64,000 nucleotides of DNA from Scenedesmus sp. ARA3 (Eukaryota > Chlorophyta > Chlorophyceae > Sphaeropleales > Scenedesmaceae): the NCBI GenBank assembly GCA_004335835.1, contig RWJK01001672.1, positions 71,866 to 135,865 of the forward strand, in the 5' to 3' direction. This document shows, piece by piece, positions 1 to 64,000 of this stretch. Position numbers and translations under genes: made by a program. The stretch's first letter is position 1. Each line of letters opens with the position of its first letter. The notes under the pieces are model-generated. The model had not been told where the DNA came from. It saw nothing but the letters and a program-made list of their open reading frames with translations, and did not search any database.

Positions 1-631
1 TATGCAGCCGAAGCCCCAGCCGCGCAGCAGCCCACACTAAGCCGATCACACCCGTTGACTCAGCCACTACTGCTGCACGTGCTGACAGTACTTGGCTCAG
101 CTGGTCTGCTACACCCTTTGGTAGGCTGTAGCTGGGCACGACATCGAGCGCCCCTTCGGCTAGCAGCAGCAGTAGCTGCGGATGATGACTCAGCATTGTC
201 CAGCTGCTCCAAGCTGTACAGAGCCCACACTGCATCTGACAGGTCCCCAGGCTGCAGCTGTGCTGCTGCCTCGCGGGTGAATGCAGCAGCAGCGAAATCG
301 GCCAGCCATTGGCGGCCAGGGTTGTGGCCTGCTGCTGCCAGGGCCCAGATGCAGCGGCAGCGCTGCTGCGGATGCATGCGAGATAGCCTGCGAGCAAAAG
401 TCCACACATATACAGGATTCAGATGTGCAGCAAATCACACTGGACGTGTGTATACAAATACTACTCATGCAAGACACTGCCGGGGTCCTGGGCGTGCATA
501 CATACGGCGCATTGCCTTGCTGGGAAAGTAGCAAGTCAGAAAAAGAAGCAGAATGATGAGTGTTAGTAGCAGTGCATTCTCACCTGCTGTGCACCTGCTC
601 AGCCAGTGCCTCCATCCAACCAGGCGGCACA

Positions 632-665
<34 letters not shown>

Positions 666-3600
666 GGCCTACCAGCACTGCCACTGCTACAGCTGCGTCA
701 GCCACAGCAGCATCTGACAGCTGCGGCCACGCCCCTGCCACGTCAGCACAGAAGCGCTGCAGCAGCAGCCGGCTGGCAGAGCATTCAAACTTGGTCAACA
801 GGTTGACCATGGTGCTGACCTCTGTTTGACCAGGGCCCTGCTGCTGCTGCTGCTGCTGCTGCTCTAGCAGCTGGCCATCTAGCTGGCTTGCAACGGTGCG
901 CAGCAGCTGCTGCACAGGCACGTCGCTGCTCCTGCCAATGCTGCTGCCTGCTGCTACAGTACTGCTGCTGGTGCTGCTGGCGGCACCTTCGCTGCTGCTG
1001 CTGCTGCTGTTGGCGCTGCTGCTAGATCCACTGCCAGTTGAGTACTGCCCATCAGCTGACAGATACAACCTCCCCAGTGCCCAGATCAGCTCCGACAGCT
1101 GCGGTTTAGTCAGCTGCTGAACCCCAGGTGCTGCTACAGCTGCAAACTGGTTTAGCCACTTGCTCGGCAACTTGACTGCTGCAGCATTGCTGCTGCCGCT
1201 GCAGCGCGCAATGGCCCACGCTGCCCCACACAGCTGCTGCGGACTCAGCTGACTAAACCTGTCATAGCTCTTGCTAATCAGCATGTTGATCAGGGACTGC
1301 AGGGTTTTAGGGTTTGCGCCCAGCTGGACTAAACCCCAGGCGGCATCTGCCAGCCCGCTGAGGTTTAGCGGCGCCTTGTAATCTGGGCTGTTGAGGATGC
1401 GAGATGCATCCATGTAGCTGCTGCCGAGCCTGCTGGTTGCCACAGCCGCCAGCTCAGACACAAACCTTGGATCTGGGCTGTAGCTGTCACTATCCCTGCT
1501 GCTGCTGCTGCTGCTGCTGGCAGAGGCAGCTTGGCCTGCTGCTGTCAATGCAGCAGCAGCATGGCAGATCGCTGCCAGCGTCTGGCTGTCTGCAGCCGCC
1601 AGCTGCTGCTGCACAGCCGCCAGGAACCCCCGCAGCCAAACCCCGGACGGCACAACCCCAGCCGCCGCCAAACTCTGCAGCACAGCGGCCATGTCTTTTG
1701 CGCTCGCCGTCCCTGCTGCTGCTGCAGCAGCAGCACGCTCCAGGTAGCTACCCATCAGCTGATCGTCCGGATCCATATCTAGCTTCTTCAACGCTGTCAT
1801 AACACCCGAGATCTGGACCGCTGTCAGGCGATCTACTGCAGTTTGAAGCTGACTCAGCGCCTCAGTGAGGACTGCTGAGGGTGCTTTGACTGGCAGCTGG
1901 CTCAGTGCATGCAGCAGGCTGACCAGCGCTTGCTCGCCGCCGGGAGATGCCACTGCTGCCCGCAGCTTGCCTGCAGAAGACAGCAGAAGACAGCAGAAGA
2001 CAGCAGATCGAAAATGCAGCGCGTAGACGAGGGAGTGCGTGGGAAGGGACCAGCGGTGTTGCAATGGTGACGCAGCCTTCACAACAAGGTCCTTGAACAA
2101 TGACTATTCCATCCCACCAGCCTTGGCTAGCTGGGCTCCCTCCCTGCTGCCCCATCCAGTGCCTGTGCCAGCCAAGCCTCATTTGGAGTGTAGCCAAGCT
2201 GCCCCAGCGCGCCCAGCAACACTACACCAGGCCACATGTAAACGCCCCAAACAGGGCACCACTCACACTCCTACCAAGGGCACCGCTCTTGCTGCATCTC
2301 ACCTGCTGCGCCGTCCAGCGCCTGTGCCAGCCAAGCTTCATCTGGCGTGTAGCCAAGCTGCCCCAGTGCGCCCAGCACTGCCGCCAGCTCGCCCGCAGTG
2401 GCCCCATCAGGCCCAGCCAGCTGCGGGTTGAGGTGCTTCAGCAGCTGCGAGGTGAACTCGGAAGGGGCGGGGATGGACTGCGCTGTCGTGGCACGCACGC
2501 CCTGCGCACACATTGCACAGTCACAGCAGCAGGGGTGACCAAGCATTCTTTCACAGGAGCATTTGAGCAGCAGCCGTGAAAGTGTACTACTAATGAGTGC
2601 AGGTAGCTGCACAGTGCTGTGTAGGAACGCTATTGCGCCAGCTCCTCTTTCCTACAAAAATATCATCAAAGCAGCACTGGCCTCAGCGTGTCATGTCTCT
2701 TCAGCGTGCCTGTTGTCTAGGCAGGCCTCTGCAAAGATTAAGCCTTGGTGATACAAAGTCATCAGCGGCCAGTGCAACCCACACACTGCACCCACGCGCT
2801 CACACATAGGCACCACATGCATCGGTTGCGACCACACACCACATGCAGCGGCTGACATCACACACATGCAGAAGCTGGCATCGCACACCCGCATTTCACA
2901 GCTGAATCAAAACATGCAGCGGCATGCAGTGGCAGAGAGTGCCGTCTACCAGCAGTGCCGTGGCCTGTCCAAAACCCACAAGCATCAGCATGCAGACCAC
3001 CGCACCGCACCTACGTGTCAACTTTTGTCAGCCGCAGCGCCACCAGCGCCTGCAGGCACTCACACAGCCGCCAAATGCACCAGGCATTTGTCCGCACAGG
3101 CATTGCAAACACCAAAACAAAGAACACAACACACAAGCTGCGGCATAGCATGCAGCAAGGCTGTTTCAAACACCTGCGTGTCCACCTTTGTCAGCCGCAG
3201 CGCCGCCAGCGCCTGCAGGCAGTGCTGCCTGTCCCTAACCCACAAATGACAAACAGTACTACTCAACCCTACCTGCGTGTCAACCTTGGTCAGCCGCAGC
3301 GCCGCCAGCGCCTGCAGGCACTCACACAGCTGGCCCCTGCTCAGGTCGCCTACATAGGCACCAAATGCAGCCCAAAACAAAACAGCACACACCATGTGCA
3401 GCGGCATGCAGCAACGAAGCTGTGCACGCCTGCACGTGCACAAGGTGCTATGGCTTGACATAAAGCAAAACAACAAGCAGTCGAAGCACAGCCAAAAAAC
3501 CAACCGCACCTGTGTGTCCACTTTGGTCAGCCGCAGTGCTGCCAGCGCCTGCAGGCACTCACACAGCTGGCCCCTGCTCAGCCCCCCCAGGCGCGGCATG

Positions 3601-6171
3601 AGGTCAGCCAGGAAGCCGCCCAGCAGCTGTGCCCGGGGCTTCTGCTTGAGCGCCCCAATGCTGCACAGCAGCGCCACGCGGTCGGCATCTGCGAAAAACG
3701 TACGCGGAAACACAACATGAGAAGGTGAGTGGGTTTAGACAGCGCATGCTTCTGGTGCAGGGCCTTGATGCTGTACAGCAGCGTCACACAATTTGTAGGT
3801 ACAATCTTCAATTGAACATGGCATACGTTCGGCACAAGAGACGCATGCTCCAGGGAGCAGCAGCATGTAACGGACATCAACCAACTCTCCCGCTAGACTT
3901 CCTTCACCACTCACGCAAAACCCGTGACTGCACCGCCCAGTTGTTGTAACAACTGCAACCTCACCTGCAAGCTTCTGCAGGGAGCCCTCCAGCTCACTCC
4001 AGTAGCCGTCCAGAACCTCGTACTCCATCAGAACCCTAAGCCCCGCCAGGGCCTGCGCCAGGTCAGCAAACTCCTGCGGTTTAAGCTGACTCAGCCGGGG
4101 TTTAAGGCCCTCCCGCTGAACCGCCGCTACAAAACCCTCCCCAGGCGCGACACCCAGCACCTGCAGTGCCTGCAGCAGCTGCACCAGCTGCCTTGTAGTG
4201 AGATCTGCCAAGTTGTGCTCATGTGACAGCTCCCCTAGCAGCTGCAAAACCGCAGATTCCTGCGATGGTTCTGCAGCGCTGAACCCCATCTGCAGGCCCA
4301 GGGTCGCCAGGATGTGTGTCAGCTGCTGGGGTTTAAACGTCGCTGATGCAGCAGCGGTTTGCACCAGCAGGCCACCCAGCAGCCGCTGCAGCTGGGGATC
4401 ACCCTGCTGCTGCTGCTGCTGCTGTGCTGCTGCTGGTGCTGCATACCAGCCGCTGAATGCTTCCACTACTGCCAGGCTGTCTGCTGCTGACAGCTGCCGC
4501 AGCTGCCTTGATAGGGCAGAGGCCATCTCAGACAGCCACTCGGGGGCTGCAAATGAACACAGTACAACACAACAGACCAGCAGCAGCAGCCGGAAGAGCA
4601 CCATTGCAAAAAATCGAACACAAACCAGCATCAGCAGCAGTGCTTACGAGAGTGGTAGCCTTCTGCAGACCTCCCATGCACTACAGCATGCGACGGAAAG
4701 GGTGGCTGTTGTTTCAGGCAACCAGCCGCTCGAATAAGAGCAACAGCTGCACGCATAATATAGCTTCTCGCACTGCAACATGTTTTGCAGAGCGGTTTGA
4801 AAAGCACGGTATGCTGCTCACCTGGTTGCGCCTCTGCAGCCGCCACGCCCCGCACCAGCCGCATCAGCACGCTGCTGCTGCTGCCGCTCATGCTGCCGGC
4901 AGCAGCAGCAGCAACAGCAGCCATGCTCGCTGCCACATCTAGCCCTTTGTGAGCCTCCTGCAGCTTAAAAGCTAGCCCTGGCTGCTGCACTTTCACCTCA
5001 GTCATTGCAAACACGATGTCAGATGCTGCTGTTGCATCCAATACAGCAGCATTCTTCAGATCTGCTGCTGAAGCCGCACTACTGCCAGCAGCAGCAGCAG
5101 CAGCAGCAGCAACAAGTGCTGCAGCAAAGTCCAGTCTATCTGACTCGGCAGGCCCAGGCCCCGAGGGGCCACCCCCCATGCCTGGCTTGCTGCTGTCAGC
5201 AGCAGCAGCAGGCTGCTGCAGCGCCCCCAGCTGCACTGCTGCCACTGCCAGCTGACCAATCGCTGCAGCAGGTGGCGGCGGCTTGTCAAACGCTGCTGCT
5301 GCTGCTGGCTTCTTGCCGGATTCTGCTGCTGGGGGTTGCTCTGGCTGCTGCTGCAGCTCGGCGGTGAGCTGCTGCAGCTGCTGCTGCGTGCAACTCATCC
5401 ATGACTTGAGCCAAGCTGGAGACAACCTGGCCACCCCTGTTGCAGCACTCTTGCCTGCCTGCCCAGTAGCAGCAGCTCCAGCACCAGCAGCAGCAGAAGA
5501 GCTAGCTGCTGCTGCTGCTGTTGTGATGGTTGCTGCCAGTGCTGCTGCCATAGATGCCAGCTGGGTGGGGCTCAGGTGCACTAGCTTGGGCTGTGATGCA
5601 GCCTGGAAGCTGTTGAGCCAGGCTGGGCGCGGGCACAGTTGCAGCGCGGCGGCAGCCTGCACAGAAACAGTGACACGGCAGGACATGTTGCACGAGTCAG
5701 TGACAGCTGGGGATTTGATGCAGCTTGGAAGCCGTTGAGACATGCAGGGCGGGGGCACAGCTGCAGCGCAGCAGCAGCCTGCACAGAAACAGTGACACAG
5801 CACGACAAAGCAGGACACATTGCACAAGTGAGTAGTAGCTTGGGCTGTGAGGCAGCGTAAAAGCTGTTGCAGCCCAGCAGCAGCCTGCACAGCGGCACAG
5901 CTTCACGTGGCGAGCAGCGGCAACAGGCAAGCAATGTACGCTTGTAAACATATAAAACGCATATGCCGAAACATGATGGCAAAGCAGCCTTTGTGCACCA
6001 GGCAGGAGTGTGACATACGGCCGGCGGCAGCAGCAGCAGCAGAAGCGCACCTGCACCACGCCCAGCAGCTGCTCAGCGCGCAGCGCCCCCAGCTGCAGCT
6101 GCAGCATGGTCGCCAGGTCATCAGCAAATGCAAGCACCCCAGCACTGCCCCTGCTCAGCGCTGCAGGCTCC

Positions 6172-6202
<31 letters not shown>

Positions 6203-7700: not shown

Positions 7701-7733
<33 letters not shown>

Positions 7734-12706: not shown

Positions 12707-12756
<50 letters not shown>

Positions 12757-14161
12757 ACATCAGGTGCCGGCCAGCAGCTGCATCATGTTGGCCTCTGCAG
12801 TCAGCAGCGCAGCACTGGGGGCGATGGCAGCAGCAGAAGGCTTCCGGTTTGAGCAGACCTTGACAGGGTTCAAGTGGCTGGGCAACATTGCCAAGCAGAA
12901 GCAGGCACAGGGGCTGACTGTGCTGTTTGCGTTTGAGGAGGCAATTGGGTTCATGTTCCCTGCCACCAACATGGTGAGCTATGTTGGTCCGCTGTACAGA
13001 GCTGGAGGCGCACTGTTATGCAGCTGAAGCCCCACTTGGCCTGCCCAAGTCCTAGGGTTTGCAGCCCGCCCCCTGGGGACTTTTAGCCGAAAAGTCCACA
13101 CTTTTAGCGCAGGTCCAGCTCGATGCACAATGTGTTACCGCTGTTGTTGAGCACCAGGTTTTGCAGCTACACACTCTAATCATACTGCATGTACTTTGCA
13201 GGTGGTACACCCGCATCATGACTATGATAGTACACTGTTATGCAGCTGAAACCCCACTGCAGCAGCCGCCTGCAATCAGACATGCCTGCCTGCACTGCTG
13301 CAGGCATGATGTGGCGTCCTGCAAGGACCAGCACTTCTCTACTTTTCCCATTGTGTTATATAACATGTCACATTATGTTATGTGTGCTGCAGGACAAGGA
13401 CGGCGTGTCTGCTGCAGCTGTGTTTGCGGAGATGGCTGCCAGCCACTACAGGCGTGGCACCACAGTGGCAGCACACCTGCGGGAGCTGTACAACAGGTGG
13501 GTGGCAGCACGGGCCGCATTGCAGCATGGGCACAGAGTGCATGGAGCTCATCTGCATGCATGCAGTGCTGTGTCCTTTGATCTGGCAGCACAGGACATTG
13601 CTTGGTAAGTGACGCAGCGCCTGGTTGGCTCATGCCAGGATGAGCAACAGTAAGCCTTTCAGCGCCAGAGCCAGCTTCAGCCCTGCTTACATGTTGTAGA
13701 ATGAAAAGTCTTCCTTTGCAACTGGTCTTGCTGTCGTGACGTAGTGCGCTGTGCCTCCAGGTACAGCCAGTTTGTGTTCCGTGCCTGCTACCGCGCCGTT
13801 CAGCTTGAAGGGTTGCGTCCTGCACCCTAGCAACCAAGCAACCAGGCTGGTTGTGGCTGATCGTTGCCATGGCATGCGAGCTGTGTCGCAGCACGTGGCA
13901 GCTCATGTGGGTGCATCAGCGCATGCAGTTCTGCGTGACATGTGACAAAGGCACCTGCGGCTCCTTCACCAAAGGTTAATTCCTGCCCAGTGAGCTCATG
14001 CCAGTGGCATCAACCGGCCGCATTGTTTGCGATGTACTGTGCTGTGCTTGCAGGTACGGCCAGTTTGTGTTCCGCGCCAGCTACTACATCGCCGACCCGC
14101 CCTCACGCAGCCAGCCCGTGTTCGACAGGCTGCGCAAGGACGGGCAGTACCCAACGGTGAG

Positions 14162-14208
<47 letters not shown>

Positions 14209-16011: not shown

Positions 16012-18544
16012 ATGTTACCAGGCCGGGCAGCGCAGCGGCAGGCAACAGCTTCTTGCAGCATGCAGCACAGCTTGTACCCTGCAGCAGCTGCAGCTCTGGG
16101 GCTGCCGGCACGTAGCCGCATTGCAGGAGCACTCAGTCAGCAATCGCGCAGCAGCTGCTGCGCCAGAGTCGCACAGCGGCAGCTAGCGCTGCTGTGCAGT
16201 GCCAGTGCCGCTGCGGCTAGCGCCAAGAAGAGCAAGAGTGCAGCGAGCCGGGCAGCCAAGTCTGCGCCAGGCATCAGCAGCAGCACCAGCGCAGTCGCTG
16301 CTGCGGCAGTTGCAACCACGACCACAGCTGAGCCAGCAAACACCAGCAGCAGCAGCACTATTGTCATTGCGAATCCGCCACTAGGTTTTTCCAACAACAT
16401 TGTGCCAGCAGCGCCGCTGGTCGCGGCAGTGAATGCGCCGCACAGCCGCAGCCCTGATGAGTATGACTCTGATGAGAGCATGGACGATGAGGGGGGCGCT
16501 GCTGCTGCCTCGTATGATGGCAGCAGCATGCAGGGCCGCTCCACTGGCAGGAGCTCCGCATACAGGTGCGGAAACAAAACATAAGTTTGTGTTGTCTTGA
16601 ATGCATGTGGTCTAGTACTCAACGGCCGACTGGCTGTGCAGCAACCTGCAGGTGCAGAACAGTGTTCAGTTTGGACAAGAGGAAACAGGCAGATGCATAT
16701 GTTGTGGTACTGTGCGGCCGGCTGGCTGTGCAGCAACCTGCGTTGCAGTGTTCCAGCAATCTCTCGTGCGTTGCGCGTGCCATGTGGGCAAAGACAACCA
16801 TGCACTTGCAGGACTTGTTTGCTGTCAGCAAGTGGCGAACCGTGTGTGTTGTTTGCCCCCACGCGCATGCTGGCTGCTGCAGGTGCCTGGTGCTGGACAG
16901 CCGCTACCTGCCTGTCAATGTCATCAGCTGGTTCAGGGCGGTGGTCATGGACGCAAGCGGCAAGGTGCGCGTGTGGCAGCATTTTTGTTTGTGTTGCTGT
17001 TTGTGCAGCTGCAGCAGGTGCTGCAGGTGCAGCAGCAGGCATGCAGCGCTAGCCCTCTGTCGCTGTTTGTGCTTGAGAGCTGTCTAAGACAACACTGTCT
17101 GCGTCGTTCCCATGCAGTTTCAGGACCAAGAGTTGATCCTTCGCTGCCACTGGTGCACCAACAGCAACACATAGTAACTGCTGCTGCTGCTGCCGCTGCT
17201 GCTGCTGCCAGGTGGACATCCTGGAGTACCACCCGGGCGGATACGCCTACTCGGCCTACAAGGCGCACCCGCTGCCTGCGGTGCTGCGCGTGCGCACCTT
17301 TGTCGACGTGCACGAGTTTGCCGGGCGGCTGAGCCTGACGCGCAAGAACATCATGCTGCGGGACCACCACAGATGCCAGTGAGTGCGCCAGCTGCTTGCT
17401 GCAGTTGCCGTTTGTGCCTGCAGTGGCGACTTGTGCCTGCAGTGGTGTGTTGCTTTGTGCTGCGGGACCACCACAGATGCCAGTGATGCCAGGTACTGCG
17501 GCTGCCAGCAAGACCTGACACTGGACGATGTCATTCCTGCGTCAGCCGGTGGCGGCAACTCCTGCACAAACTGCCACCGCCGCTGCTGCTGATGATGATG
17601 CTGATGCTACTGCTGCTGATGCTGCTGCTGCTGCCAGGTACTGCGGCTGCCAGCGGGACCTCACCCTTGACCACGTCATCCCTGTGTCTGCTGGCGGCGG
17701 CAACTCCTGGGGCAACCTGGTGACCGCCTGCATGGCCTGCAACCAGCGCAAGGGTAACAAGAGCCTGGCACAGCTGGGCTGGAGCTTGCCTGCAGTGCCA
17801 CGGGAGCCGACTCCGCAGGAAGTTGGCGTGATCGCTGGCATTAGCAAGGTGGGCGCAAGCCAGGGGAGCGGTAACGGATCATGGTGTGCTGCGGGTTGGT
17901 GGTGTGTGGTGTGGTGTGGCGTGCTGGAGCTTGCCTGCAGTGCCACGGGAGCCGACTCTGCAGGAAGTTGGCGTGATCGCCGGCATCAGCAAGGTGGGCG
18001 CAAGGAGGGAGAGCTTTGGCGAGCTGTGCTGCAGCGTGCTGAATTTGGTTTTGCTGTGTTGTGCCATGCCGCCGGAGCCCGCGTTGCGGGATGTCCGCGA
18101 GATTGCGGGCATCAGCAAGGTGGGCGTTGTGACGTGCTGTGGCGTGGACAACACTGCAGTGCGGCATGTACTTGCATCGCAGAACATGCGCGTTGTAACA
18201 AATGTGGCTGCGTTCTTGTTGTGTTCACACAGGCTGATCTAGCAGACCCGCCGCTGCCCTGGGCGCCCTACCTAGCCTCATTTAAGGTCATGCTGGACAA
18301 GGCACAGCGGCGGGCAGCAGCAGCAGCATCAGGCCCTGGCTGGTCTGGCAGCAGCAGCAGCAGCAGCAGAGGTGACTTTGAAGCTTCGGATCTTGTCAGT
18401 GTGACGATGCACCCTGCGGGCCCGGGGTCAAAAGCAGCAAAGGCGGCGGCAGCAGCAGCAGCAGCAGCTGGGGGCGGTGTAGCTAGCAAGGCAGGTGGGG
18501 CGAAGGTTGCGTCCAAGGCCAACAAGTCTGGCAGGGTGCGGTGA
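16012..18544 (+). CDS. HNH endonuclease-domain protein, probably organelle-targeted
   Basis: Five exons: 16012-16565, 16883-16964, 17212-17378, 17638-17848, 18233-18544, giving 441 aa (425 aa if the second ATG at 16060 is used). Residues 1-~60 are Ser/Ala/Arg-rich and transit-like, followed by an acidic SPDEYDSDESMDDE patch. The domain begins with CLVLDSRYLPVNVISWFRA, then SLTRKNIMLRDHHRCQYCG, then the HNH core LTLDHVIP (Asp279-His280), SAGGGNSWGNLVTAC and CNQRKGNK. This is the compact McrA-like HNH family found in plants, algae and cyanobacteria, with a paired-cysteine zinc site; its substrate in plants is not established. The C-terminus is a basic Ala/Lys tail. The intron between exons 3 and 4 and the one after exon 4 carry duplicated exon fragments. 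Confidence 0.88.
17356..17660 (+). repeat. Duplicated exon 3 end / exon 4 start of the HNH gene
   Basis: The end of exon 3 (…RDHHRC) is repeated 104 bp downstream at 17460, and directly after it the start of exon 4 is repeated at 17493 (146 bp before the real exon). In the copy the essential Asp-His reads Asp-Asp and the segment ends in NSCTNC rather than NSWGNLVTAC, so it cannot encode an active HNH core. Confidence 0.85.
17779..18135 (+). repeat. Three copies of HNH exon 4's 3' end
   Basis: The exon end reading LPAVPREPTPQEVGVIAGISK, with its GTGGGC donor at 17849, recurs with donors at about 17994 and 18120 (spacings 145 and 126 bp). The second copy is almost identical and the third is reduced (PREIAGISK-like). 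All keep GTGGGCG after AAG. Confidence 0.9.
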
Positions 18545-21294: not shown

Positions 21295-21341
<47 letters not shown>

Positions 21342-26359: not shown

Positions 26360-29300
26360 ATGCAAACTTACAGCAACAAAACGTCTTCCCAGTCGCTGCG
26401 CAGCGCTAGCAGACGATGCTTCACAAGCAGCAATTGCCCGCAGCGACCAGCCCTCCGCTCACAGAGCTCAGCTGGCCAGCAGAGACGGGTTGCAGTCGAA
26501 GCACTGGTTGGAGCCAAGTTGGTTGGCGTTGGTAGCAGCGTGCCAGCGACAGTGCTTAGTAACACAGACCTGCAAAAGTTCGTGGAGACAAATGATGAAT
26601 GGATTTCCACCCGCACTGGCATCAAAAGGAGGCATGTACTAGCGGAAGGCGAGAGCATGGCAAGCCACGCTGCAGAAGCGTGCAAGAAAGCTCTGGAGAT
26701 GGCCAATGTTGCAGCAGCAGACGTCAACATGGTGATCATGGCAACCAGCACACCCGATGATGCCTTTGGCAGCGCATGCCAGGTGGGTGGATGTGCTTCT
26801 TGAATAATGAAGTGCATATGGACACCTACTGCAGCATTGTGTGCAGCTGCAGAGCAGCGGCAGATGCAGGTGTACAGCAGTGTGGGTACGCCTGACACAG
26901 CTGCTTCGGGAAATCGGCATATCACAGCTTGCAGCAGACACGTGTGAGATAGCTGCCATTCTTTTGTCGATCGCATGCATGCCAGCAGCAGCTGACAGCG
27001 TGCGCTGCACTGCACTTGACAGCAATGTACCGCCAACTTGCGGTGCAGCACGGAGGCAGCATGTCATCAGCAACTCTCCACACTAAAAACCGGCTCAGCC
27101 AAGACAATATTCAAACTTTTATGTGTATCTCCAGCATTTGCAGGTCTCGTAGTTTTGTTTGTGTGCCTGCAACCAGACGTTGTCAGTTGGATCTGTAAAT
27201 GTAATGTAATTATATGCCCTGCGCAGGTACAAGCAGCCATCGGCGCCAAGCAGGCAGTCGCATTTGACCTCACAGCAGCATGCAGCGGCTTTGTGCTGGC
27301 GCTGGTCACAGCAGCGCAGTTTGTGCGCACCGGCACAGCCAAGCACGTGCTGGTCATCGGTGCAGACGCGATGAGCAGAGTGGTGGACTGGAGGGACAGG
27401 GGTGAGGCGCTTGGGCGCAACTGCAAGACCTTGCAATGAATCATGTACAGCAGAGCTGTGACCTTTCATACAATGTTCAGCAGCAGCGCCATGTGGCGGC
27501 GAACCTATCATGCGTCTTAGAATTGCAGCAGGCACAGGGCAGCCTAGTTACTTCAACGATCATTGCCATCCTCCAGTAGTTAACGTGCATCTTCACAGCA
27601 ACAGGCGTCAGCTTGCGGCCCACCCACACACCACAACCACAAATAAGCTTGCAAAAAAAACACTCAGATGTGCCACCGCCGCCTTACCATTGTACTGCTT
27701 GCTGCGCCGCAGGCACCTGCATCCTCTTCGGCGACGGCTGCGGCGCCGTGCTGGTGTCAGCAGCGCCCGAGGGTGAGGCCTGCAGCCTGCTGGGCCTGGA
27801 CATGCACAGTGACGGCAACGGCCAGAAGTCGCTGCACGCAATGTACAGCGGCTGCGGCGGCAAGCCCTTCCAGGTGCGGCGCAGCGCTGTCAATCCATGA
27901 TTGGTGTGCCAGCAGTTTGACGTAGCTTTGACTGTTGACATGTACAGCGGCTGGGGCGGCAAGCCCTTCCAGGTGCGGCGCAGCGCTGATAGCTGAAGTT
28001 TGTGTGCCAGCAGTTTGACCTAGCTTTGGCTGTTCACATGTACAGTGGCTGCGGCGGCAAGCCGTTCCAGGTGCGCTGCAGCGCTGTCATTCCGGCGGCA
28101 GGTTGACTCAGGTTTGACTGTTGACTGGCACACCCGCTGCGGCAGCAAGTTCTTCTGGGTGCGCGGCACCTGCGGCTGTGGTTTGCAGCTCGCATAACAG
28201 CAGCCGCGGACTTGTGTGTGGCAGCAGCAGCAGCGCAAGCTGGAGTGCAGCAGCAGCCACAGGAGTGTTGCCAATGCAGCTGCAGCAGAGCATGCCTCTC
28301 CATCTATCAACAGCGTGGCCTGATCAGCAGTCTATGCCACTGACTGGTGTTGCGAAAGCTTCACGGAAGCTGTCAAGCAATTTGCTGCCTGTTGACCGAG
28401 CGTTGACCGGCGCTTGACCGGCCACATCTCCTGTAATCGTGTTGTGCTTGCAGGACGCGGGCGCCAGCAGTGACGCGAGCTACGGCAACGTCCACATGGC
28501 GGGCCAGGACGTGTTCAAGTTTGCGGTGCGCAGCGTGCCTGCTGTCATCGATGCGGCGCTGAAGCAGGCGCAGCTCACCAAGGATGATGTTGACTGGCTG
28601 GTGATGCACCAGGCCAACCAGCGCATCCTGGACGCAGCGGCGCAGCGGCTGGGGCTGCCAGCCGAGCGGGTGAGCACATTGTATCGTAGAGGTTGCAGGC
28701 AGGGGGCAATGGGTGGGCGCAAGTTTGTCTGTAACATTGTGCAATCTTTGTTCCTTTTTACCGGCGCATCCTGGATGCAGCGGCACAGCGGCTGGGGCTG
28801 CCAGCGGAGCGGGTGAGCAAGGGGTGCAGGGGTTGCGGGCACGGCAGTTGGGAGGCGCAAATTCGCAGCAGTAGGCACTTTGGGATGCTAGCGTCGTTTG
28901 TGGGGTGTGCTGATGGGTCGGATAGCAGCTGGGGCTGGCAGTAGAGTGGTTGGGTGCATTGGAGCGTTCGTGCAGGTAGCAACTGCATCAGACATGCAGT
29001 GTGGAGGCAGTGCAGAAGGATGCTGGGTTGTGACTGTGACTGTGCCTGCCAGCAGGACTGCTGGGGTATGCTCTGCAGGGCCGGGGTTGCAGCAGGAGCG
29101 TACAAATGTGTGCAGCGAATTCACGTGCACAACACACCTCAACGCACAACGATAGGGCATCGGTCCTTTCTGTTGTTGTTCTCGCCTGTTTGCTGATGAT
29201 TGTGCTGATGCTGATGCTATTGCTGCTGCACGTTGCGCTGTAGGTGGTCAGCAACCTGGCAGAGTACGGCAACACCAGCGCTGCCAGCATACCCCTGGCG

Positions 29301-29408
29301 CTGGATGAGGCTGTGCGGGCAGGCAAAGTGAAGCCGGGAGATGTGCTGGCGATGGCAGGGTTTGGTGCAGGGCTCACATGGGCAGGCGCTATCGTGCGCT
29401 GGGGCTGA
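26360..29408 (+). CDS. KAS3/FabH-like: 3-ketoacyl-ACP synthase III (KAS III), plastid
   Basis: Five exons: 26360-26782, 27227-27401, 27713-27873, 28454-28669, 29244-29408, giving 379 aa. KAS III condenses acetyl-CoA with malonyl-ACP and starts plastid fatty-acid synthesis. Residues 1-~45 are Ser/Arg/Gln-rich and transit-like; the mature enzyme begins near [17 protein letters not shown]. The catalytic triad is complete: Cys160 in TAACSGF, His305 in MHQANQRI and Asn335 in [11 protein letters not shown]. The His-Asn spacing of 30 equals that of bacterial FabH. The motif [12 protein letters not shown] near the N-terminus and the C-terminal [16 protein letters not shown] are also standard. The introns after exons 3 and 4 and the 3' UTR carry tandem copies of the preceding exon ends. 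Confidence 0.96.
27835..28170 (+). repeat. Four copies of KAS III exon 3's 3' end
   Basis: The last ~35 exon bases ([11 protein letters not shown]) plus intron recur at 27940, 28038 and about 28130 (spacings 99, 98 and about 95 bp). Copies 2 and 3 keep the CCAGGTGCG donor context; copy 4 reads TGGGTGCG and is degenerate. The intron parts also match each other (GCGCAGCGCTG, then GCCAGCAGTTTGAC). Confidence 0.9.
28615..28950 (+). repeat. Duplicated KAS III exon 4 3' end
   Basis: The exon end [16 protein letters not shown] with its GTGAGC donor is repeated 143 bp downstream at 28764-28817 with the donor intact. A weaker third copy may lie at about 28905-28950. Confidence 0.85.
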
Positions 29409-29700
29409 GCAGGTTGTCTGCTGTGCCGGATGCATGCCAGCTGGAGTGCTGTCTGTCACGTTGTCTGGCAATGGCAGGCTTTGGCGCAGGGCTGACATGG
29501 GCAGGCGCCATTATGCGCTAGGGCTGGGCTGCTGCAGGCAGTCTGGTCTGCTGTGAGGAAGGTTGTGCTGGGCAACTCTGCAGCAGGTGTACCTGGCGCA
29601 AGTGTGGGCTGAGCTGTTGCAGGCTGTCTAGTCTGCTGTGCAGAGGATCTTGCTGGGCAGCTGTGCAGCAGGCGTGCTTAGCGCAAGTGTGGGCAGCAAC
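29340..29700 (+). repeat. Terminal-exon copy and ~83-bp repeats in the KAS III 3' region
   Basis: The sequence coding [16 protein letters not shown] is repeated 119 bp downstream (from about 29465), past the stop codon. The copy also ends in a stop. It is followed by two ~83-bp tandem units (about 29527-29609 and 29610-29692). Confidence 0.85.
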
Positions 29701-33997: not shown

Positions 33998-35591
33998 CTA
34001 ACAAGTGCCTGCACCGCGGTTCTTGATGCCACACCCCTTGGTGAAGTCCTTGAGCGTGGTGCTGGTGAGTCCGTTGATGCCAGCACCCAAGATGCCATTC
34101 TCCACATCAGACCACACGGCAGGGTCACACAGGCCTGCAACAGCAAAGTGTAGCAGCATGCACGTGGTAAGGCAGCAGTCAACCCTAAGGCTGCAGATGG
34201 CTGCAGCAGCTGCGATGCACACCGCAGTAAACATTGCAGCAGGCCTGATCACGTGCCGGTTAGCAGCAAGCAAGTGCACATACTATCCTGCAGACTTTGC
34301 TACTGACAGGATGTGTGAATGGTTCTTGCAAGGCAAGGCTGCAGCTGTGCTCTGTTTGTTTACAAACGAGGATGCAGCCATGTCAGCCATGCAGAACCAC
34401 AGATAATGTAGTTTGGCCACCCCTGCAGCAGCTGTGTGCTTGACCAGCAACTCACAGTCGGCTGGTGCCACTGACATTGCACTCTTGGCCTGCGACAGCA
34501 GCAGCAGCAGCAGCAGGCAGCAGCGACAGTGGCATCAGGTTTCCATTATTACGGCATGCTGTTTTGAATCATGCATGCATGCCATCCCCAATCCTGCAGC
34601 GCACCTCCCCGCAGCATTTGCCAAAATCGCAGCTGACCTCCACACACATACATGCCAGCATTCACAGCCACACCATGCAGCCCATGTGTGTGAGCATGCA
34701 TGCCTATGTAATCTGCTATCACGCAGCAGCGCACCTCCCCGCAGCACTTGTTGATGTCAAAGTTGCCCTCCAGGGCGCACGCCGCCTTCATACGCGATTC
34801 GATGCTGCTGCGCCCGCCAGCCTTGTTGAAAGCCTGCAGGAACGGCAGCAGCAGGCCCAGCATAGCAGCACGGCAGCGAGGGCAGCAGCAGCGATCAGTC
34901 CACGCATGTATGTGGCTGCAAGTGTAGGGGCTTGCTCACCTGTACACCACCACCAGTTTGGCGGTTGCTGAAGTCATGACGTGCGCATGCAGCGCTTTAC
35001 TGCAAGGCTGGGGTTGGAATGTATAGTCAACGCATGAATTACAGGGCATGGAAGGGAGATGCTGCTGGCTGCTGGTGTGCAACAGAGGCTGGCTTTGATG
35101 GTACCTCTCAATTCAGCAGCAGCAGCAGCAGCAGCAGCAGCCGCAGCGACGATGGATGGAAGCTGCACAGCTTCAATATGGCATGCACATGCATCCGTTG
35201 TACTGAATTCTTTTTTCCCTTTAATTGGGCCGCAGTACTCAAGCATGATCATGCTAGCTGCAGCTACATGCGCTGCTGGTGCCCTATTGATCGCATGGCT
35301 GTCTGTGCAACCGGGCGCCAGGACATGCATGGATGATGCATGATGGCAGCTGAGGCTGGCATGCAAAGCACTACAGCACCAAGCATGCAAGTTTGTGGCA
35401 AGAGAGCCTGGCAATAAAGGTAACAGTGCCGTTCTGTTGCCTACCTGGTTGCACTGGTCATACTTGCTGCCTTGCTGCATGAGCTGCCGCAGCTGGCGCC
35501 CAGCAAGAGGGTGGGCTGCTGCAGCATCCATTGACACTGCTGCAAGCAGCAGAACGCCAGCAAGCACGATCAGAGTAGATGCGTGAGACAT
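33998..35591 (-). CDS. Small secreted eight-cysteine protein, lipid-transfer/prolamin-superfamily-like
   Basis: Four exons, 35591-35445, 34833-34735, 34489-34456, 34134-33998, all phases closing, give 138 aa. Residues 1-26 form a clear signal peptide (TLIVLAGVLLLAAVSMDAAAA). The mature part has exactly eight cysteines (47, 68, 79, 80, 94, 96, 128, 138) in the order C-C-CC-CxC-C-C, the eight-cysteine motif of plant non-specific lipid-transfer proteins. The x of CxC is Leu, and the end CGIKNRGAGTC resembles the CGV..-C close of that family. Spacings are C-20-C-10-CC-13-CLC-31-C-9-C, so the first and C6-C7 loops are longer than in land-plant LTP1. In plants such proteins bind lipids in the apoplast. 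An unrelated algal cysteine-rich fold is the main alternative. The third exon is only 34 nt and rests on phase and splice consensus. Confidence 0.62.
34594..34790 (-). repeat. Duplicated 3' end of exon 2 in the eight-cysteine protein gene
   Basis: The exon end around KCCGE with its GTGCGCTGC donor (real donor at 34734) is repeated 130 bp downstream on the minus strand (donor at 34604). About 50 bp of exon and the first bases of the intron match, and the copy keeps the GT. Confidence 0.85.
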
Positions 35592-38374: not shown

Positions 38375-38411
<37 letters not shown>

Positions 38412-39322: not shown

Positions 39323-39356
<34 letters not shown>

Positions 39357-43087: not shown

Positions 43088-43126
43088 ATTCCTGCAAGAG
43101 AGCCGCCTGCAGGAATCATTCCTGCA
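43088..43126. repeat. Three alternating inverted arms (ATTCCTGCA / TGCAGGAAT)
   Basis: ATTCCTGCA at 43088-43096, its complement at 43108-43116 and ATTCCTGCA again at 43118-43126. The middle arm can pair with either neighbour (loops of 11 nt or 1 nt). Confidence 0.75.
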
Positions 43127-46160: not shown

Positions 46161-46191
<31 letters not shown>

Positions 46192-46569: not shown

Positions 46570-46610
<41 letters not shown>

Positions 46611-55155: not shown

Positions 55156-58100
55156 ATGTTGGGACCATCAGCACTGCATCAGACAGGCACCGCAAAGCAC
55201 AGTAGCACACACAGCATGCAGCGGCAACATAGCTCACTAGGAGCAGCATGGAGCAGCAGCAGTAGCAGCAGCCGGGGCATGCTGTTGAAGCAGCAGAGAA
55301 AACATGCGCTGCTGCCAGCAGCAGCATCTGCATCGGCACAGCAGGTTGCACCACTGTCCAGCATTAGCTGCTGCAGCGGTGCACGCAGGTTACACAACCA
55401 GCAGCAGCAGCAGCAGCCGATGCTGCTGCAGCCAGCTGCTGCGCTGTTCAGCAGCTCTAGAACTAGCAGCAGGCCGCCGTTCAGCAGCAGTAGCAGCAGC
55501 AGTAGACGGACATGCATAAGTTTGCATGCAGTACAGCGTCAGCAACCTCCTGCAGCTGGCAACACTAGCAACAGCCAGCAGCATCAGCAGCGGCGCAGCA
55601 ACGTGCGCTGTGCAGCATGGGGCAGGCCGCCCTCAAATAGCAGCAGCAGCAGCAGCGGTTCCCAGCCGCCAGACCCATGGGGCCAGCAGCGGCCCCCCAG
55701 AGGGGCCTGGCAGGGTGGCACCAGCCCTAGTGGCCTGCAGTTCGACAGCGTAAACGGCTCAGGTGACGCAGAGAACCCTCTGAACAGTTACGATCCATGG
55801 GAGGACGCAAGGCCGCGTGTGCCTGCTGGTGGGGTGCCTGCGTACGAGCAGACCGACTGGGGCTGGGATGCTGCTGCTGAGCAGGACTGGGACCCTGCTG
55901 CGGGGCTGGGCCCTGAGCAGCTGGCTGACCTGGAACGGTGAGTGGAATGAGTAGAGTAGTTGCTGATGGTGTTTGTTTTGGTGGAGGTGCATGCTTGCAA
56001 AGGAGATGTAGGTATGGGATGCTGTGGGCAAGCAATCAGGCAGGGCAGCTGTGTGCTTATGAGCTAGTCAGTGCCAAAGCACTGACTGTGATCAGGAAGA
56101 CGTTTTGTCACAGCACATGCTGACTGGAGGGTAGCATGTGGCTGGAGATGTAGCAGTGCAGGCACATGTGATCGCATGCAGCAGAAACCCTGCTTCTGTG
56201 CGGGAACTTGTAGTGCACAGACCTAGCAGTGTTCACAGCATGCAGTAGGCAGGACAGCAGCAGCCAAGTCAGCAGAAGCGGGCACGGCCACTTGATGCTG
56301 CTCGTCTGCCTGGCCAGCCAGCTGTCAGTTCAGACATTCAAACCAGCTGTAACCTGAACCCTGTGTGCAGGGACTACCAGGAGCAGATGGACAGGCGCAG
56401 GGGCTCCAGCGAGCCGCCGCGTGACAAGTGGATCACGCCGCTGCTGGACTGGCAGGTGCGCTGGGCACACCTGTAGCTGCGCACACCTCGCCTGGTGCAG
56501 CTGCGGTCCTAGCACATGCTATCCAGTGACAGCTGCAAACACAGCAAGGTTGCAGCCACTCTCTTATGCTCAATCGCACACCATAAACTGAAGCAAGTGA
56601 TGTGACACCCATCAAAGAAGTCACATCTCTCGTGTTCTGCCTCCTTGCCTGCCGTGGTGCAGTCCATCAGCGGCGCCTTTGACCCCGACCAGTCCCGCAC
56701 TGAGGAGTCCATGGCTGACGAGGCGCTCACCAACAAGGAGGAGTCACGGGAGGCGCTGGCCTTTGCAGGGCGGCTGGTGGCCATCCCCCTCATCACGGGC
56801 GCACTGATCAGCAGGGCCATCACGGAGCCGGTGCTCAGCTTCAGCCTGCAGGTGGGCAGCTGGGGGGTGTAAGTTTTTGTCTGGTTGTTGGTCTATCTCA
56901 TCAGCAGGGCCGTCACGGAGCAGTGCTCAGCTTTAGCCTGCAGGCGGGCGGCTGGGGTTTGATTTTGAAGTGGTTTTGTCTGGTGTCATTTTGCTGGTCT
57001 TACTCTCGGCAGGGCCATCACGGAGCCAGGGCTCAGCTTAGCCTGCGCGCGGACTGCTGAGTGGTGTTGTATTGTTATGACGTGTCAGCAGGCCGTTAAT
57101 CTGAGGTGTTGTTTTGTCATCTGCAAGCGCTCACCAGCGCGGCCGGTGCTTAGCTTCAGCCTGCAGGCGCGCGGCTGGAGTTGTGCACGAGTGCAAGCTT
57201 GTTTCATTACCTCGTGACTGTGTCATGTGCGCGGTGTTGTAGCGCTTGTAGCACTCGCTGGCTGCAGCTGGCTGATCTTGCGTCACCTCACCACCGCTCA
57301 TGTACGCCTTGCTGCTGCCGCTGCTGCTGCTGCTGCCGCAGAACAACCCCAACGCGTTTGCGATGACGGGCCGCCAGAAGATTGAGGGCGCTTCTGCGGT
57401 GCACCTGGAGGAGACGCGCGTGAAGATGATGATGGCTATCGGGCAGGCACCGCCCCTGGATGACGAGAGCATGCTGCGCCACCTGCACGAGTATGCGCTG
57501 GAGGTGCGCACAGAGGGCTTGAATGCTAGCTGCCCTGCGAATGTGATGTCCGTTACATGGCAGATGTGCTGGATGACGCCAGCATGCTGCGCCACCTGCA
57601 CAAGCATGCACTGGACATGCGGATTTCGGCATTGGTTCAAACATGGTGTAGATGATGTTACAGAATCCAAGGTGGTGGATGTGCTGGGTGGCGGTCTTGG
57701 CGCGATCCTGTTTTGAGGCGTTGCATCCTACCTTTGCCCATATCACTCATTAACACAGTACTGCCGTTGCTGTGCTTGATTTTCTGTTTGCTCTTTTCGC
57801 CCTGCAGGTGCAGGAGGAGGAGCGCCAGCACAACGAGGCCAACCTGATGACAGCCGTCAGCGACAGCATCTCCGCCATGGTCTTCTTCCTGCTGTTTGTA
57901 AGAGACACGCAGGGCCGCGCAGCCATCTTCAACACACTGGGGCGGCTGTTTGAGGGCCTGTCTGACATTGCCAAGGCCGTCATGATCATCCTGATCGCTG
58001 ACACGCTGCTGGGGTACCACTCCGAGGAAGGTGTGTGCCAACATGTAGCAGTGATTATTGTGACACAGTGTTTGGCCACAGGGTGGACTGCTTTTGCATC

Positions 58101-58661: not shown

Positions 58662-58688
58662 GCCAGCAGCAGCTGGACAGGCACTGAG

Positions 58689-58692
<4 letters not shown>
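58645..58692 (+). repeat. 24-bp tandem duplication across the CemA-like stop codon
   Basis: AGCTGGACAGGCACTGAGCC, including the TGA, occurs twice in tandem, followed by a (CAG)n run. Confidence 0.85.
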
Positions 58693-58724
<32 letters not shown>

Positions 58725-60038: not shown

Positions 60039-63000
60039 TTGGCTGTCACAGCGTGCTTTGCTGACCTGGCTGCAGCTGTCGGTTCTTCGACACCACAAGA
60101 CGCACATGAGAGCAGCAGCGCTATTGCAATGAAGAGCTTGAAGTGTAACCATCGAGATCTTCGAGCCTGTGCACCGGTCAGCCGGACAGCAGCGCTTAAA
60201 ATCAGCAGCAGAAGGCAGCAAACACGCTCAAGTCCGCTGGGAGCAGCTGACAAAGAGGACAGCAGCACAGGAGTGGTAATGGTGAATCAAGAAAGCAGCA
60301 ATGGCAATGGAGACGGCAGCAGCAACGGCCAGAATGGAGCAGCACCAGCCAGCAGCATAAGACAACCGCTGCTACCACAGAGCAGCCTGCGCAGCAGCAG
60401 TAGCACTCCTGCAAACTGGTCTGACATTACTATATACAAGGTATAGTGAACGACACAGCAAAATCATGTTGCTCTTCTTCATATGTGTGTTGCTTGAGTC
60501 TCAAAACAGCACATGATTCCTGGCACGACACCACATGCCCATGTGTGCACGCCCAGCACCTGCAGCAGCAGCAGCGGCGGCAACAGCTGTGTCCTGAGCG
60601 GTCGCTTCTGTGATTAGCATAGCGTCTGTTGTTGTCAGCCCCTTGTGCCGGTTGCAGGTTGTATCAGCAATAACACGCAGCACAGCAGACTTGCTTCTTC
60701 GGCACACCCCATGTATTGTGCACTGTCACTGGTTTCCATCAGTTCACAGCGGGCTCACTGACTTGCAAACCCCCTGATGTGCCTTCAGGGGGCCAAGCTT
60801 GCGCCGGCAGCTGCTGCGATAGCAGCTGGCCTGGCAATACGCTATGCAGTGCCTGTACCCGAAGGCCTCACTGATCAGGTGCGCGGCAGCAACAGGAGCA
60901 GGAGCAGCAGCAGCAGGAGTGGCAGGCATTGCTACATATTGCTTGTTTTGCTGAGCATGCTGCAGCGGCTGTTAATGCCTTGGCAGCTGCTGCGACATCC
61001 CTGCAGGGACGCTGTCAGCAGTTTATCGCTCCTGCAAGCATGCAGCAAGCAAGCAAGGCCAGGCTAGCGTCACCTGCCACTCCCATACAGCAACGTCAGG
61101 CTGTTGGTGTCTCACCGCAAACTCTGCACACTATCTTCTTAGCGCACCCTGTGCCGCACCTTGCCTCTGCATGTCAGGCTTGGTCGCTGCTGGCGCTGTT
61201 CGTGACAATGGTGTCTGGCCTTGTGCTGGCGCCACTGCCCACTGGCGCGTGGGCCTTCCTAGGGGCGACAGCAGGCCTCTTGACACACACGCTGACCTTT
61301 GAGCAGATGTTTGCGGCTGCAAACAACACTGTGATGTGGCTGGTGGTGGTGTCATTCTTCCTGGCAAGGGTGAGCACAGAGCAGTGCTGGCTGGCGCGGC
61401 AGCTGAGTGATTGCCGCATGTTGCAGTGCACTTGTATGGCTGCATGCGCGTTCAGCAGGAGTTTGCAGCAGCAAGTAGCGCTGTGTTGAGGCTGGGACGT
61501 ACCCACTGCCGATGTAATGTGGAGGACGGCTGCCTGTTGACTCAGCTTGTAAGGACAGATGCACTTTGCACCAACACCGCAACTGTGCTTCCATGCGATG
61601 CTGCTATGTTCCTGTTATTTCTGTTATCTGTTTGAATTTCGAACGCCTGCAGGGCTTTGAGAAGACGGGGCTGGGCGAGCGCATCGCCAACAACCTGCTG
61701 ACTGTGTGCGGCAGCAGCAGCCTGCAGCTGGCGCTGGGCCTGGCAGCAGCAGAGGTGTTAATAACACCTGCCATGCCCAGCACGACAGCACGGGCTGCAG
61801 GCATCTTCATGCCTGTGATCAAGTCGGTGTCGCAGGCAGTCGGCAGCATGCCAGGTGCGGGGTGGGGAGTGCCGGGTGGTGTGGTGCACATTGGGGTGAT
61901 GGGGTGGTGTACAAAGAATGGATACTTGTTGTGGCAGCAGCTGCGTGGCTTTGCACCTTGTAGCGCACACCACCTGATGCCGAGCCAGGTGCTCAGCTTT
62001 TGTGGCCGCCTGCTTCGGCTGTCAGCGCTGGCGCTACTTCAGGGTGTTGTGGCTGGCAGGGTGGGGAGCAGCGCCCTCTCAGCAGTAAGACATGTGCTTA
62101 CAACAATCATGTGTCACTGCCCCCACCGCTGCTGCTGCTGCTGCTGCAGGCGACGAGAGCCGCAAGCAGCTGGGCGCCTTCCTGATGCAGGCGCAGTTCC
62201 AGTCGTCGGTGCACAGCAGCAACTTTGTGATGACAGCGGCTGCGCAGAACCTGCTGTGCTTGCAGATGGCTGCCAGTGTGGGCGTGTCGCTGGGTGACCC
62301 ATTCATGACCTGGCTGGCAGGTTCCAGCGTGCCGGTGCTACTAGGTGAACACAGCAACAGTAGCCACTGTGACTAGCATTTTGTCCCTGCAGTATGCATG
62401 CTGCAGTTGGCATGCTGGTAGCTTGTCTCTGGGGACGTACTTGAGCCTTGCTGTATGCCTTGTGCTGCATTGCTTGGCTTTATTGGTGCAATGTATACTC
62501 AATAACTTGCTGCTGCTGTACTGCTTCCTACTGCCTGCAGGTGTAGTGCTCACCCCTTGCGTGCTGTACTGGCTGTGGCCGCCCGCCATCACCAGCACGC
62601 CACACGCGCCAGCGGCAGCTAGAGCGCGCTTGCAGGAAATGGGGCCACTGTCAGCAGATGAGGGGGTGATGCTCGGTGCAGTGACGCTGGCTGTGGGGCT
62701 GTGGGTGGGTGACACTGCACCGGTGACACGGTGGCTGGTGACACTCTGGCTGGTGACACTGTGGCTGGCGACACTGCACGAGTGACACTGTGTTACAAAC
62801 CGCTGGTCTCGTGATATCGTTTGTGACTGACAAGTTGGAGTTATGGCGCTGTCCATGCCGCCAAGCTTGCTGCATATGGACCAGCAAAATCTTAAACATC
62901 AAGCATCTGCATATAAACCAGCAAGCACTTTGACAGTTGTTCTCTGCCATCAATCCCTTTGCTTTGCTGGCTGCCTACCTCGCTGGCTGCCTGTCTAATC

Positions 63001-64000
63001 TTCCACCCTGCAGGTGTTTGGTGGGCAGCTGGGTGTTGCACCCGTGACAGCTGCCATGTGTGCGCTGGGTGTGCTGCTGGCCAGTGGCGTGCTGAGCTGG
63101 CAGGACTGCCTGCAGTACACACCAGCCTGGGACACACTCATCTGGTTCACAGGTGGGCAACATGCCTCACTATCTGCTTTGCTTCACGATGTTGTGTCAT
63201 GATGGGTTAGGACTGGGGTGATTATTCATTGGGCAATCGCGGGATTGCATGGCAGCCAGACATGTTTTGACAAGGGACGTGGTCTGGCCGTCTGGGACAC
63301 ACTCATCTGGTTCACAGGTGGGATCAGGCATGGGCTCACTGCTCAGCCGGTTATGCATGCTTTCATGGCGTTCGGTCGGATTTGACTTGCGGTTGTTGTC
63401 ATGTTAGCCACACCAGCTGTGCGCGTGCCGGATAGGGGTTGCTGTTGCTTGCAAATGCACGCCAGCCAACAGAAGCAGTTCCTGTTGGCTGTGTTTCAAA
63501 GCCCAGCCAAGCAAGGCTGCAAACCGATCACACCATCCGACAAGCTCACAGAGTACACCACGCCTCTGCTGAACTTTTTCCTCCTGCTGCTGCTGCTGCT
63601 CCTGCTCCTGCTGCCGCCGCAGTGCTCGTGAGCATGGCTGGAGGCCTGCAGTCTCTGGGTGTGATCGACCTGTTCTCAGGCTGGGCAGGGGGCCAGCTGT
63701 CAGGCCTAGACCTGCCCTGGCCGGCGCTGTTTGCTGGGCTGCACCTGCTGTTCTTTGCCATGCACTACATGTTTGCCTCGCAGACGGCGCACGTGGGGGC
63801 GCTGTTTGCTGCCTTCTGCTCGCTGATGATATCGGCAGGTAAGCCTCATCCTGTGTTTGTGGTGTGAGATGAACTGACGGACTTCAACAGTCGGTCACAG
63901 TTCATTGGCGAGTCAGCGCAGTGGTTGTAGCATGCTTCGTCAGCTGTCCATTGAGCTGTGATGCAGCAAGTGCTTGCAGCGCCCAGCAGCCGGTGCATCA
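60039..64000 (+). CDS. DiT1-like: Plastid 2-oxoglutarate/malate translocator (DiT1, SLC13/DASS family), partial at right edge
   Basis: Visible exons: 60039-60440, 60789-60878, 61178-61369, 61653-61854, 62150-62344, 62541-62704, 63014-63152, 63623-63838; the gene continues beyond 64000. Together they encode 533 aa in frame. DiT1 exchanges 2-oxoglutarate for malate across the inner chloroplast envelope and supplies carbon skeletons for ammonia assimilation. Residues 1-~110 are a Ser/Arg-rich transit region (a second start, ATG at 60129, is equally possible). Family blocks follow: AWSLLALFVTMVSGLVLAPL, NNTVMWLVVVSFFLARGFEK, TGLGERIANNLLTVCGSSSL, the substrate loop ITPAMPSTTARAAGIFMPVI, FQSSVHSSNFVMTAAAQNLL, GVAPVTAAMCALGVLLASGV, DTLIWF and FAMHYMFASQTAHVGALFAA. 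About ten membrane helices are covered; the last helices are missing. Confidence 0.94.
62709..62790 (+). repeat. 15-bp tandem repeat at the start of DiT1-like intron 6
   Basis: TGGCTGGTGACACTS units, three in tandem with further GTGACAC words on both sides, beginning right at the donor of exon 62541-62704, whose first intron bases (GTGGGTGACACTG) resemble the unit. Confidence 0.8.
63121..63326 (+). repeat. Duplicated DiT1-like exon 7 3' end
   Basis: The exon end WDTLIWFTG and its GTGGG donor (63153) are repeated 165 bp downstream with the donor intact (63318). Confidence 0.9.

Follow-up and report, generated by a model that had tools for sequence, protein, structure and literature searches.

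Introns of Scenedesmus sp. ARA3 carry local copies of exon edges that may be exchanged with the working edges

Here we have analysed a 64,000-nucleotide stretch of the genome of the green alga Scenedesmus sp. ARA3 (the window), in which the ends of exons recur, often together with their splice sites, as copies inside neighbouring introns. The genes concerned are those for PGM, HNH, KAS III, CemA and DiT1 on the forward strand and an OPR gene and an eight-cysteine gene on the reverse strand; Pfam matches confirm PGM, KAS III, CemA and DiT1, HNH falls just below the Pfam cut-off (21.4 vs 22 bits), and a Pfam scan of the OPR strand gave no match. The presence of exon-edge copies in introns is beyond chance. 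Specifically, once short tandem repeats had been masked, an ungapped comparison of the window against itself (lags 25-699, score of at least 19) returned 38 local direct pairs, among them every locus named in the original prediction, vs 0 in two triplet-block shuffles. The pattern also recurs elsewhere in the genome, on several contigs: in a first survey set of 259 kb, which comprises the window and 21 stretches (L002-L022) forming 16 sequences, matches scoring at least 56 within 1 kb amounted to 69 direct and 6 inverted pairs, with 0 in one shuffle. Such mainly direct orientation is expected of slippage or unequal exchange and not of transposition; replication slippage, one of the mechanisms first proposed, fits in this respect, but slippage alone would leave no sharp boundary.

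Repeat families were built from a 276-kb sample of the 87.3-Mb genome (1567 contigs), 124 kb of the sample being one contig; matches with a score of at least 50 formed 62 families. L016 and L017, which hold coding repeats, were excluded from the codon and family counts, and L023 and L024, chosen for suspected copies, were excluded from the placement test, with boundary and codon figures given with and without both. In L016, exons at 1639-3415 are repeated at ~820-890 bp, apparently in a gene with internal coding repeats.

Exon edges throughout are those of a gene finder that we wrote and trained ourselves and whose models were checked against orthologues in two genes only (KAS III, DiT1). Trained on curated seeds, it learned the splice signals MAG/GTGAG and TGCAG/G, two earlier trainings having been discarded for wrong seeds and a wrong splice consensus, and its modelled medians are ~127 bp for exons and ~249 bp for introns. 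PGM, CemA and DiT1 each keep a single open frame across their modelled junctions. The KAS III model is identical to Tetradesmus obliquus P0004 over 280 residues and 92% identical to Scenedesmus P0001 over 99% of the query; the copies are absent from both proteins, and the orthologues support the exon joins. The DiT1 model is 99% identical in the aligned part to T. obliquus P0121, with agreement across the 63152 junction and one error of 16 residues elsewhere. By its KAS III and DiT1 proteins the alga is T. obliquus or a very near relative. The earlier claim that the genes stay intact therefore stands for the two that were checked. All counts that follow are limited in that the gene finder miscalls some copies as exons and ends the last KAS III exon early.

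Placement of the copies and their boundary at the splice consensus

Fifty-one families involve a modelled exon, 30 on the donor side, 18 on the acceptor side and 3 in the interior. The copy lies downstream in 29/30 donor-side families and upstream in all 18 acceptor-side ones, so that one geometry is kept in 47/51 families, with 1 exception besides the 3 interior cases. This survey supports the original prediction of a geometry common to all events, but it reduces the strong donor bias claimed there to a mild excess. The modelled junction itself is included in 45/51 families, and 3 more come within 13 nt of it. On the donor side, 27 of the 30 include the junction and 3 lie within 13 nt; one of the 27 is really the KAS III stop edge, which was scored as a donor among the 51 families and the 27 donor exons because the model ended that exon early, and which was dropped in the recount without picked loci. 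What the analysed families share is one edge with a variable length of exon rather than a whole exon with both its splice sites, as in tandem or mutually exclusive exon duplication; a few, for example L007 3398, span both edges of a short modelled exon.

With periods of up to 24 bp masked, the shortest lag falls at 92-165 bp in 47/59 families and at 213-293 bp in nine, two being longer. The lower edge is sharp: a single family of the 59 has a lag below 92 bp, at 81, and it is a minisatellite. Head-to-tail units along the whole period, typical of minisatellites, occur in a minority (27841, 87021, L012 6798), and the spacer is unshared in most.

In unpicked loci, 40/48 families are exon-involving, as against 37.5% edge cases under random placement among tolerated positions (p ~9e-11, or ~9e-7 if the expectation is raised to 49%, by a rough estimate of our own, since copies at exon edges may decay more slowly), which bears out the enrichment at exon edges. 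Two families, 28650 and L007 3398, touch an exon edge though counted among the 8/48 that are not exon-involving, and the 40/48 figure was kept; six of those eight families are wholly noncoding. Furthermore, both copies fall inside one modelled exon in only 1/51 families (L017), vs 15% of random placements, the comparison being on unpicked loci. Stretches from first to last copy make up 7.2% of intronic bases, and the copies thus fall short as the cause of long introns that they had been taken for.

The similarity between exon and copy ends near the splice consensus. When each alignment was extended ungapped across the junction, donor-side similarity was 0.87-0.92 over the last 20 exon bases, 0.90 at GT and 0.79 at +2..+6, then 0.37 at +6..+10, 0.45-0.48 at +10..+20 and 0.34 or less beyond; on the acceptor side it was 0.93 at -3..0, 0.61 at -6..-3 and ~0.5 to -15, then 0.3-0.4. 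A fitted break lies 1-7 nt past the donor in 20/27 exons (14/19 without picked loci and the stop edge) and 3-6 nt from the junction at the acceptor in 9/19 (6/14 in the same recount), while on the exon side the shared stretch ranges from 3 up to at least 60 (the cap). Usually, then, the splice consensus alone is shared, and not the adjoining intron that the unit was originally said to include. The position of the break is independent of exon-block divergence: where divergence does not exceed 3%, the break falls within 8 nt in 9/13 pairs (6 of the 13 come from picked loci), and it does so in 6/6 such pairs outside picked loci. A boundary in near-identical blocks means that block similarity must be decoupled from true age.

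The copied splice sites are strong. Among donor copies, 31/39 pairs keep GT and score like real donors, vs 24% of random intronic GTs; among acceptor copies, 25/29 keep AG and 21/29 score like real acceptors, vs 25%. The differences between exon and copy also follow the reading frame, amounting to 6.3%, 3.3% and 17.1% at codon positions 1, 2 and 3 (one pair per family). The third-position ratio (position 3 vs 1+2) is 3.5 (bootstrap 2.5-4.8), 3.8 (2.6-5.5) without picked loci, 4.15 (3.05-5.87) when trinucleotide-stratified and 4.1 in 17 families of genes with outside identity support. These counts omit pairs with fewer than 7 aligned codons or with little exon past the match, and so omit KAS III 28650, and they collapse repeated matches of one copy to one.

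Individual exon-edge copies

In the OPR gene, the exon end at 2302..2377 (modelled exon 2303-2482) recurs at 2143-2218 with 91% identity over 76 bp at a lag of 159, the differences being 6 synonymous and 1 nonsynonymous. The donor end of the exon at 3510..3688 is copied downstream at 3273-3344, 3174-3221 and 3015-3068 (pairs 3004/3503 and 3318/3555); a hand count on the alignment places 5/5, 5/5 and 4/5 of the differences of these three copies at third positions, and the family holds three mutually incompatible informative sites. At the acceptor end of modelled exon 4822-5656 (5583..5892), upstream copies at 5705-5757 and 5836-5892 give matches of 83% over 53 bp, 88% over 34 bp and 89% over 27 bp. 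The two weakest named loci are the OPR pair 3638/3748 (78% over 40 bp) and the donor-side pair 34596/34726 of the eight-cysteine gene (34596..34772, modelled exon 34735-34833, 79% over 47 bp, lag 130).

On the forward strand, the acceptor of PGM exon 14054-14156 (as modelled) has an upstream copy at 13738-13791 (13738..14084; pair 13738/14031, 85% over 54 bp, lag 293). HNH carries two events that were absent from the earlier list: an exon end with an exact 29-bp copy at 17458 (17354..17486, 100%, lag 104), in which similarity stops 4 nt beyond the modelled donor, and an exon start, 17635-17709, with an upstream copy at 17490-17564 (17490..17709, 84% over 75 bp, 9 synonymous and 3 nonsynonymous differences), in which D replaces the H of LDHVIP, a change that we read as a lost motif residue. 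Within the HNH intron, 17458-17564 thus holds the copied end of one exon and, ~10 bp further on, the copied start of the following exon; in the copy, the intron between them looks deleted. A further HNH exon end, with a modelled donor at 17848, is copied at 17924-17986 (97%) and 18062-18126 (74%), within 17779..18126.

KAS III, with its orthologue-supported gene model, shows three events. The donor end of exon 27713-27873 has three downstream copies at 27940, 28038 and 28130 (27841..28168), and that of exon 28454-28669 has a copy at ~28777-28819 (28634..28863; pair 28650/28793, 96% over a 27-bp core, three third-position differences). The end of the last exon, with its stop codon, is copied at 29465 into the 3' untranslated region (3'UTR; 29346..29529, 86% over 65 bp ungapped), an event again absent from the earlier list. 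The first 16 codons of this copy show 6 synonymous and 0 nonsynonymous differences, followed by V to M and an earlier stop; ungapped similarity stops 2 bp after the stop codon, and weaker gapped similarity continues into the 3'UTR. As this copy spans the stop codon, a splice site is not required for such a duplication, a point that also bears on the repair at transcribed splice sites proposed earlier. After the 3'UTR copy comes an 85-bp tandem repeat, exon end, copy and repeat lying within 29346-29694.

In CemA, three downstream copies accompany the donor end of exon 56663-56851 (56804..57182; 56804/56897/57006/57142), and the copy at 57569 of the donor end of exon 57342-57503 (57456..57621, 87% over 53 bp) has lost its donor (GT to AT). 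The donor end of DiT1 exon 63014-63152, a junction confirmed by P0121, has an exact 31-bp copy at 63292 (63127..63322; pair 63127/63292, 100%, lag 165), and the flanking intron shows no significant similarity (p 0.16 and 0.45). The wide spread of copy identities claimed for these loci is thereby borne out. Elsewhere in DiT1, at 62680-62790, a 15-bp minisatellite starts at an exon end and repeats exon-end and donor-like sequence; it is here that the model overran the exon, by 16 residues vs P0121.

Outside the window, L024 holds at 2093-2753 six copies of the start of a kinase exon (DFG region) with its acceptor, separated by CTG repeats, and with 8 exon differences in the shared block that are all synonymous. 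This array is weaker than it appears, as 7/8 of the differences are third-position C-to-T changes in CpG. The window also contains a 53-bp imperfect palindrome (43091-43143, 87%), among the few inverted repeats, and, at 37219-39769, one long open frame of ~850 codons that is rich in glutamine and has runs of CAG.

Origin of the copies

We tentatively favour local direct duplication combined with an exchange between copy and exon edge that is limited by homology. In this genome, such duplications would recur across exon edges at a spacing of ~92-165 bp; a duplication that straddles an edge would keep the first donor or the last acceptor in working order and so be tolerated, and those wholly within an exon would be rare among survivors. 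Exchange, whether by unequal recombination or by gene conversion and whether within one allele or between two, may then keep copies similar to the exon edge. Through exchange a copy can end up in the exon itself, so that the surviving versions would be those that have kept their coding and splicing capacity, while the intron outside the block drifts. Exchange, its direction and the part played by selection are what we infer from these patterns. Exchange would explain young-looking blocks beside old-looking introns, as well as the incompatible site patterns found among copies (13/24 informative site pairs, 8 of them from one family). Indeed, a forward simulation, run with one set of mutation rate and population size, yielded under exchange a similar block (third-position divergence 0.05-0.13) beside a diverged flank (~0.49).

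Several results weigh against duplication with exchange. The incompatible patterns rest on few sites. Whatever the divergence class, the shared part takes in more than 10 nt of intron in ~30% of pairs, and under gapped comparison some of 17 window events still show similar spacers; plain tandem duplications are thus among the events. The copy-vs-copy third-position ratio is 3.1 (1.8-5.9, 20 families). Simulated third-position ratios were 1.3-2.3, and 1.3-1.7 under frequent exchange, vs 3.5 observed; without exchange they were 1.6-2.2. With the one parameter set, gene conversion alone thus failed to reproduce the codon bias. A simulated ratio this low implies that exchange draws on diverged alleles or that some copies are or were coding, and the size of the codon bias would accordingly need one of these in addition.

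A paralogous source of the copies is unlikely, judging from a whole-genome search with eight stretches from seven genes, which found only their own loci except for CTG-type repeats in the case of the DiT1 intron; copies from six genes matched no other locus as templates, in a search that scores only the best candidates and skips common words. It is possible, though somewhat doubtful, that introns of this alga hold spare exon edges, in the sense that the copies of coding sequence and splice site are still interchangeable with the working edge, that exon ends evolve together with them and may take replacements from the intron, and that selection would thereby reach introns at codon resolution.

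Neutral tandem duplication alone fits poorly, and we regard it as an unlikely account of the whole pattern. By this account duplications arise anywhere, those within exons are eliminated, and copies of exon edges can be recognised for longer owing to their conserved exon side, so that the pattern is one of ascertainment. Neutral duplication with unequal decay does explain the position of the copy relative to the junction. It agrees, furthermore, with families that are tandem with similar introns (KAS III 27841, 87021), with the six wholly noncoding families among those that are not exon-involving, and with the heterogeneity of the copies, several of which decay with stops, frameshifts or lost donors (CemA 57569, the fourth KAS III copy). 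The excess of edge families, even against the expectation allowing for decay, is explained by it only with difficulty, and the boundary at the splice consensus persists even in near-identical blocks. The codon signal is similarly awkward: the third-position ratio expected for a neutral copy of a constrained exon is about 2 at most, and the exon-copy ratio lies above this, by a thin margin for copies not called exons (3.20, 2.0-4.9), while the interval for copy vs copy goes down to 1.8. Changes unique to a single copy, a rougher test, give a ratio of 1.9 (103/1167 vs 110/2344), which a neutral copy could reach.

It is still less likely that some copies are directly selected, as alternative exon ends or as decoy or regulatory (unproductive) splice sites. 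Their splice sites look functional, codon-like differences are stronger where the finder calls the copy an exon (4.36 vs 3.20), and one copy of the L024 kinase exon has 8 synonymous and 3 nonsynonymous changes, the latter conservative-looking. However, the frame from exon on into the copy is open in 1/39 donor pairs only, and use of the copies by intron read-through was rejected on this count; the copies are missing from the KAS III and DiT1 proteins annotated in T. obliquus, a motif residue seems to be lost in one HNH copy, and one copy sits in a 3'UTR.

An origin from diverged alleles seems improbable to us. Here unequal exchange between haplotypes, or a hybrid origin, would juxtapose two separately evolved versions of an edge and so account jointly for codon-like differences, kept splice sites and unalignable introns; in line with this, DiT1 as encoded in this genome departs at a few residues from the protein of another T. 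obliquus record. Against it, divergence between families runs from zero to high, an array of six copies plus the exon exists (L024), and no second haplotype was found for the searched copies in a search that scores best candidates only.

Very improbable, in turn, is a copying process aimed at splice junctions, such as RNA-templated or splicing-coupled repair: a boundary near +6 and -3 whatever the divergence would suit it, but the KAS III duplication spans a stop codon and not a splice site, the exon-side extent is variable and the codon bias would go unexplained. Reverse transcription of lariats, as originally proposed, is a poor fit, as the copies run from the exon across the donor. An assembly artefact of joined haplotypes or misplaced repeats, conceivable in an assembly of 1567 contigs, is barely credible given arrays of several diverged copies, a pattern on several contigs and only 1/51 families wholly inside one exon, a position that an artefact would not avoid.

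Relation to known duplications and meaning

Duplications crossing one splice junction are already known. In the potato RdRp gene, a tandem duplication across an intron-exon boundary created a new intron (PMC4974935). The geometry is the same, and the units described here likewise straddle a single junction; the potato gene, however, is a single case with a new intron, as against 40 families for 915 modelled junctions here. Unlike in that gene, the two annotated proteins checked here are unchanged and mostly only exon and splice consensus are shared. Rather than a new intron with a changed protein, KAS III and DiT1, the two genes concerned, have T. obliquus proteins without the copies. Another study, cited in the potato paper, reportedly found frequent short duplications within genes that affect exon-intron structure; it is not known to describe maintained exon-edge blocks with codon-like differences.

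In the AGGT model of intron gain, an exonic AGGT is duplicated and one copy becomes an intron (PMC3443670). Both cases involve a local direct duplication that interacts with splice sites, but here existing splice junctions have been copied into introns: in place of a duplicated exonic AGGT supplying both splice sites of a new intron, the copies carry one existing junction and lie inside introns. Direct repeats near splice sites have also been described as 4-30 bp sequences, compared from one intron border to the other and taken for traces of insertion (PMC11782384). These too lie at or near exon-intron borders, whereas the copies here are longer, derive from one exon edge and are found inside the intron. 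Introners, which are dispersed similar introns reported also in green algae, resemble the present case in that intron sequence is shaped by copying (PMC9860276). Unlike introners, the two introns that were searched for showed no relatives elsewhere in the genome apart from simple repeats: the HNH intron matched its own locus only, and the DiT1 intron its own locus along with matches limited to its CTG-type 3' end. None of the titles and abstract beginnings listed from an open-licence library described the present pattern, which is weak evidence of novelty.

As a practical matter, the gene finder called 21/51 best copies at least partly exonic, and annotations of this alga may therefore contain false exons. 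Should the pattern hold with RNA-supported gene models, the intron sequence of this alga would be partly shaped by selection through exchange with exons, replacements for exon ends would be stored close by, and the material from which duplication makes new introns would become observable by strain comparison.

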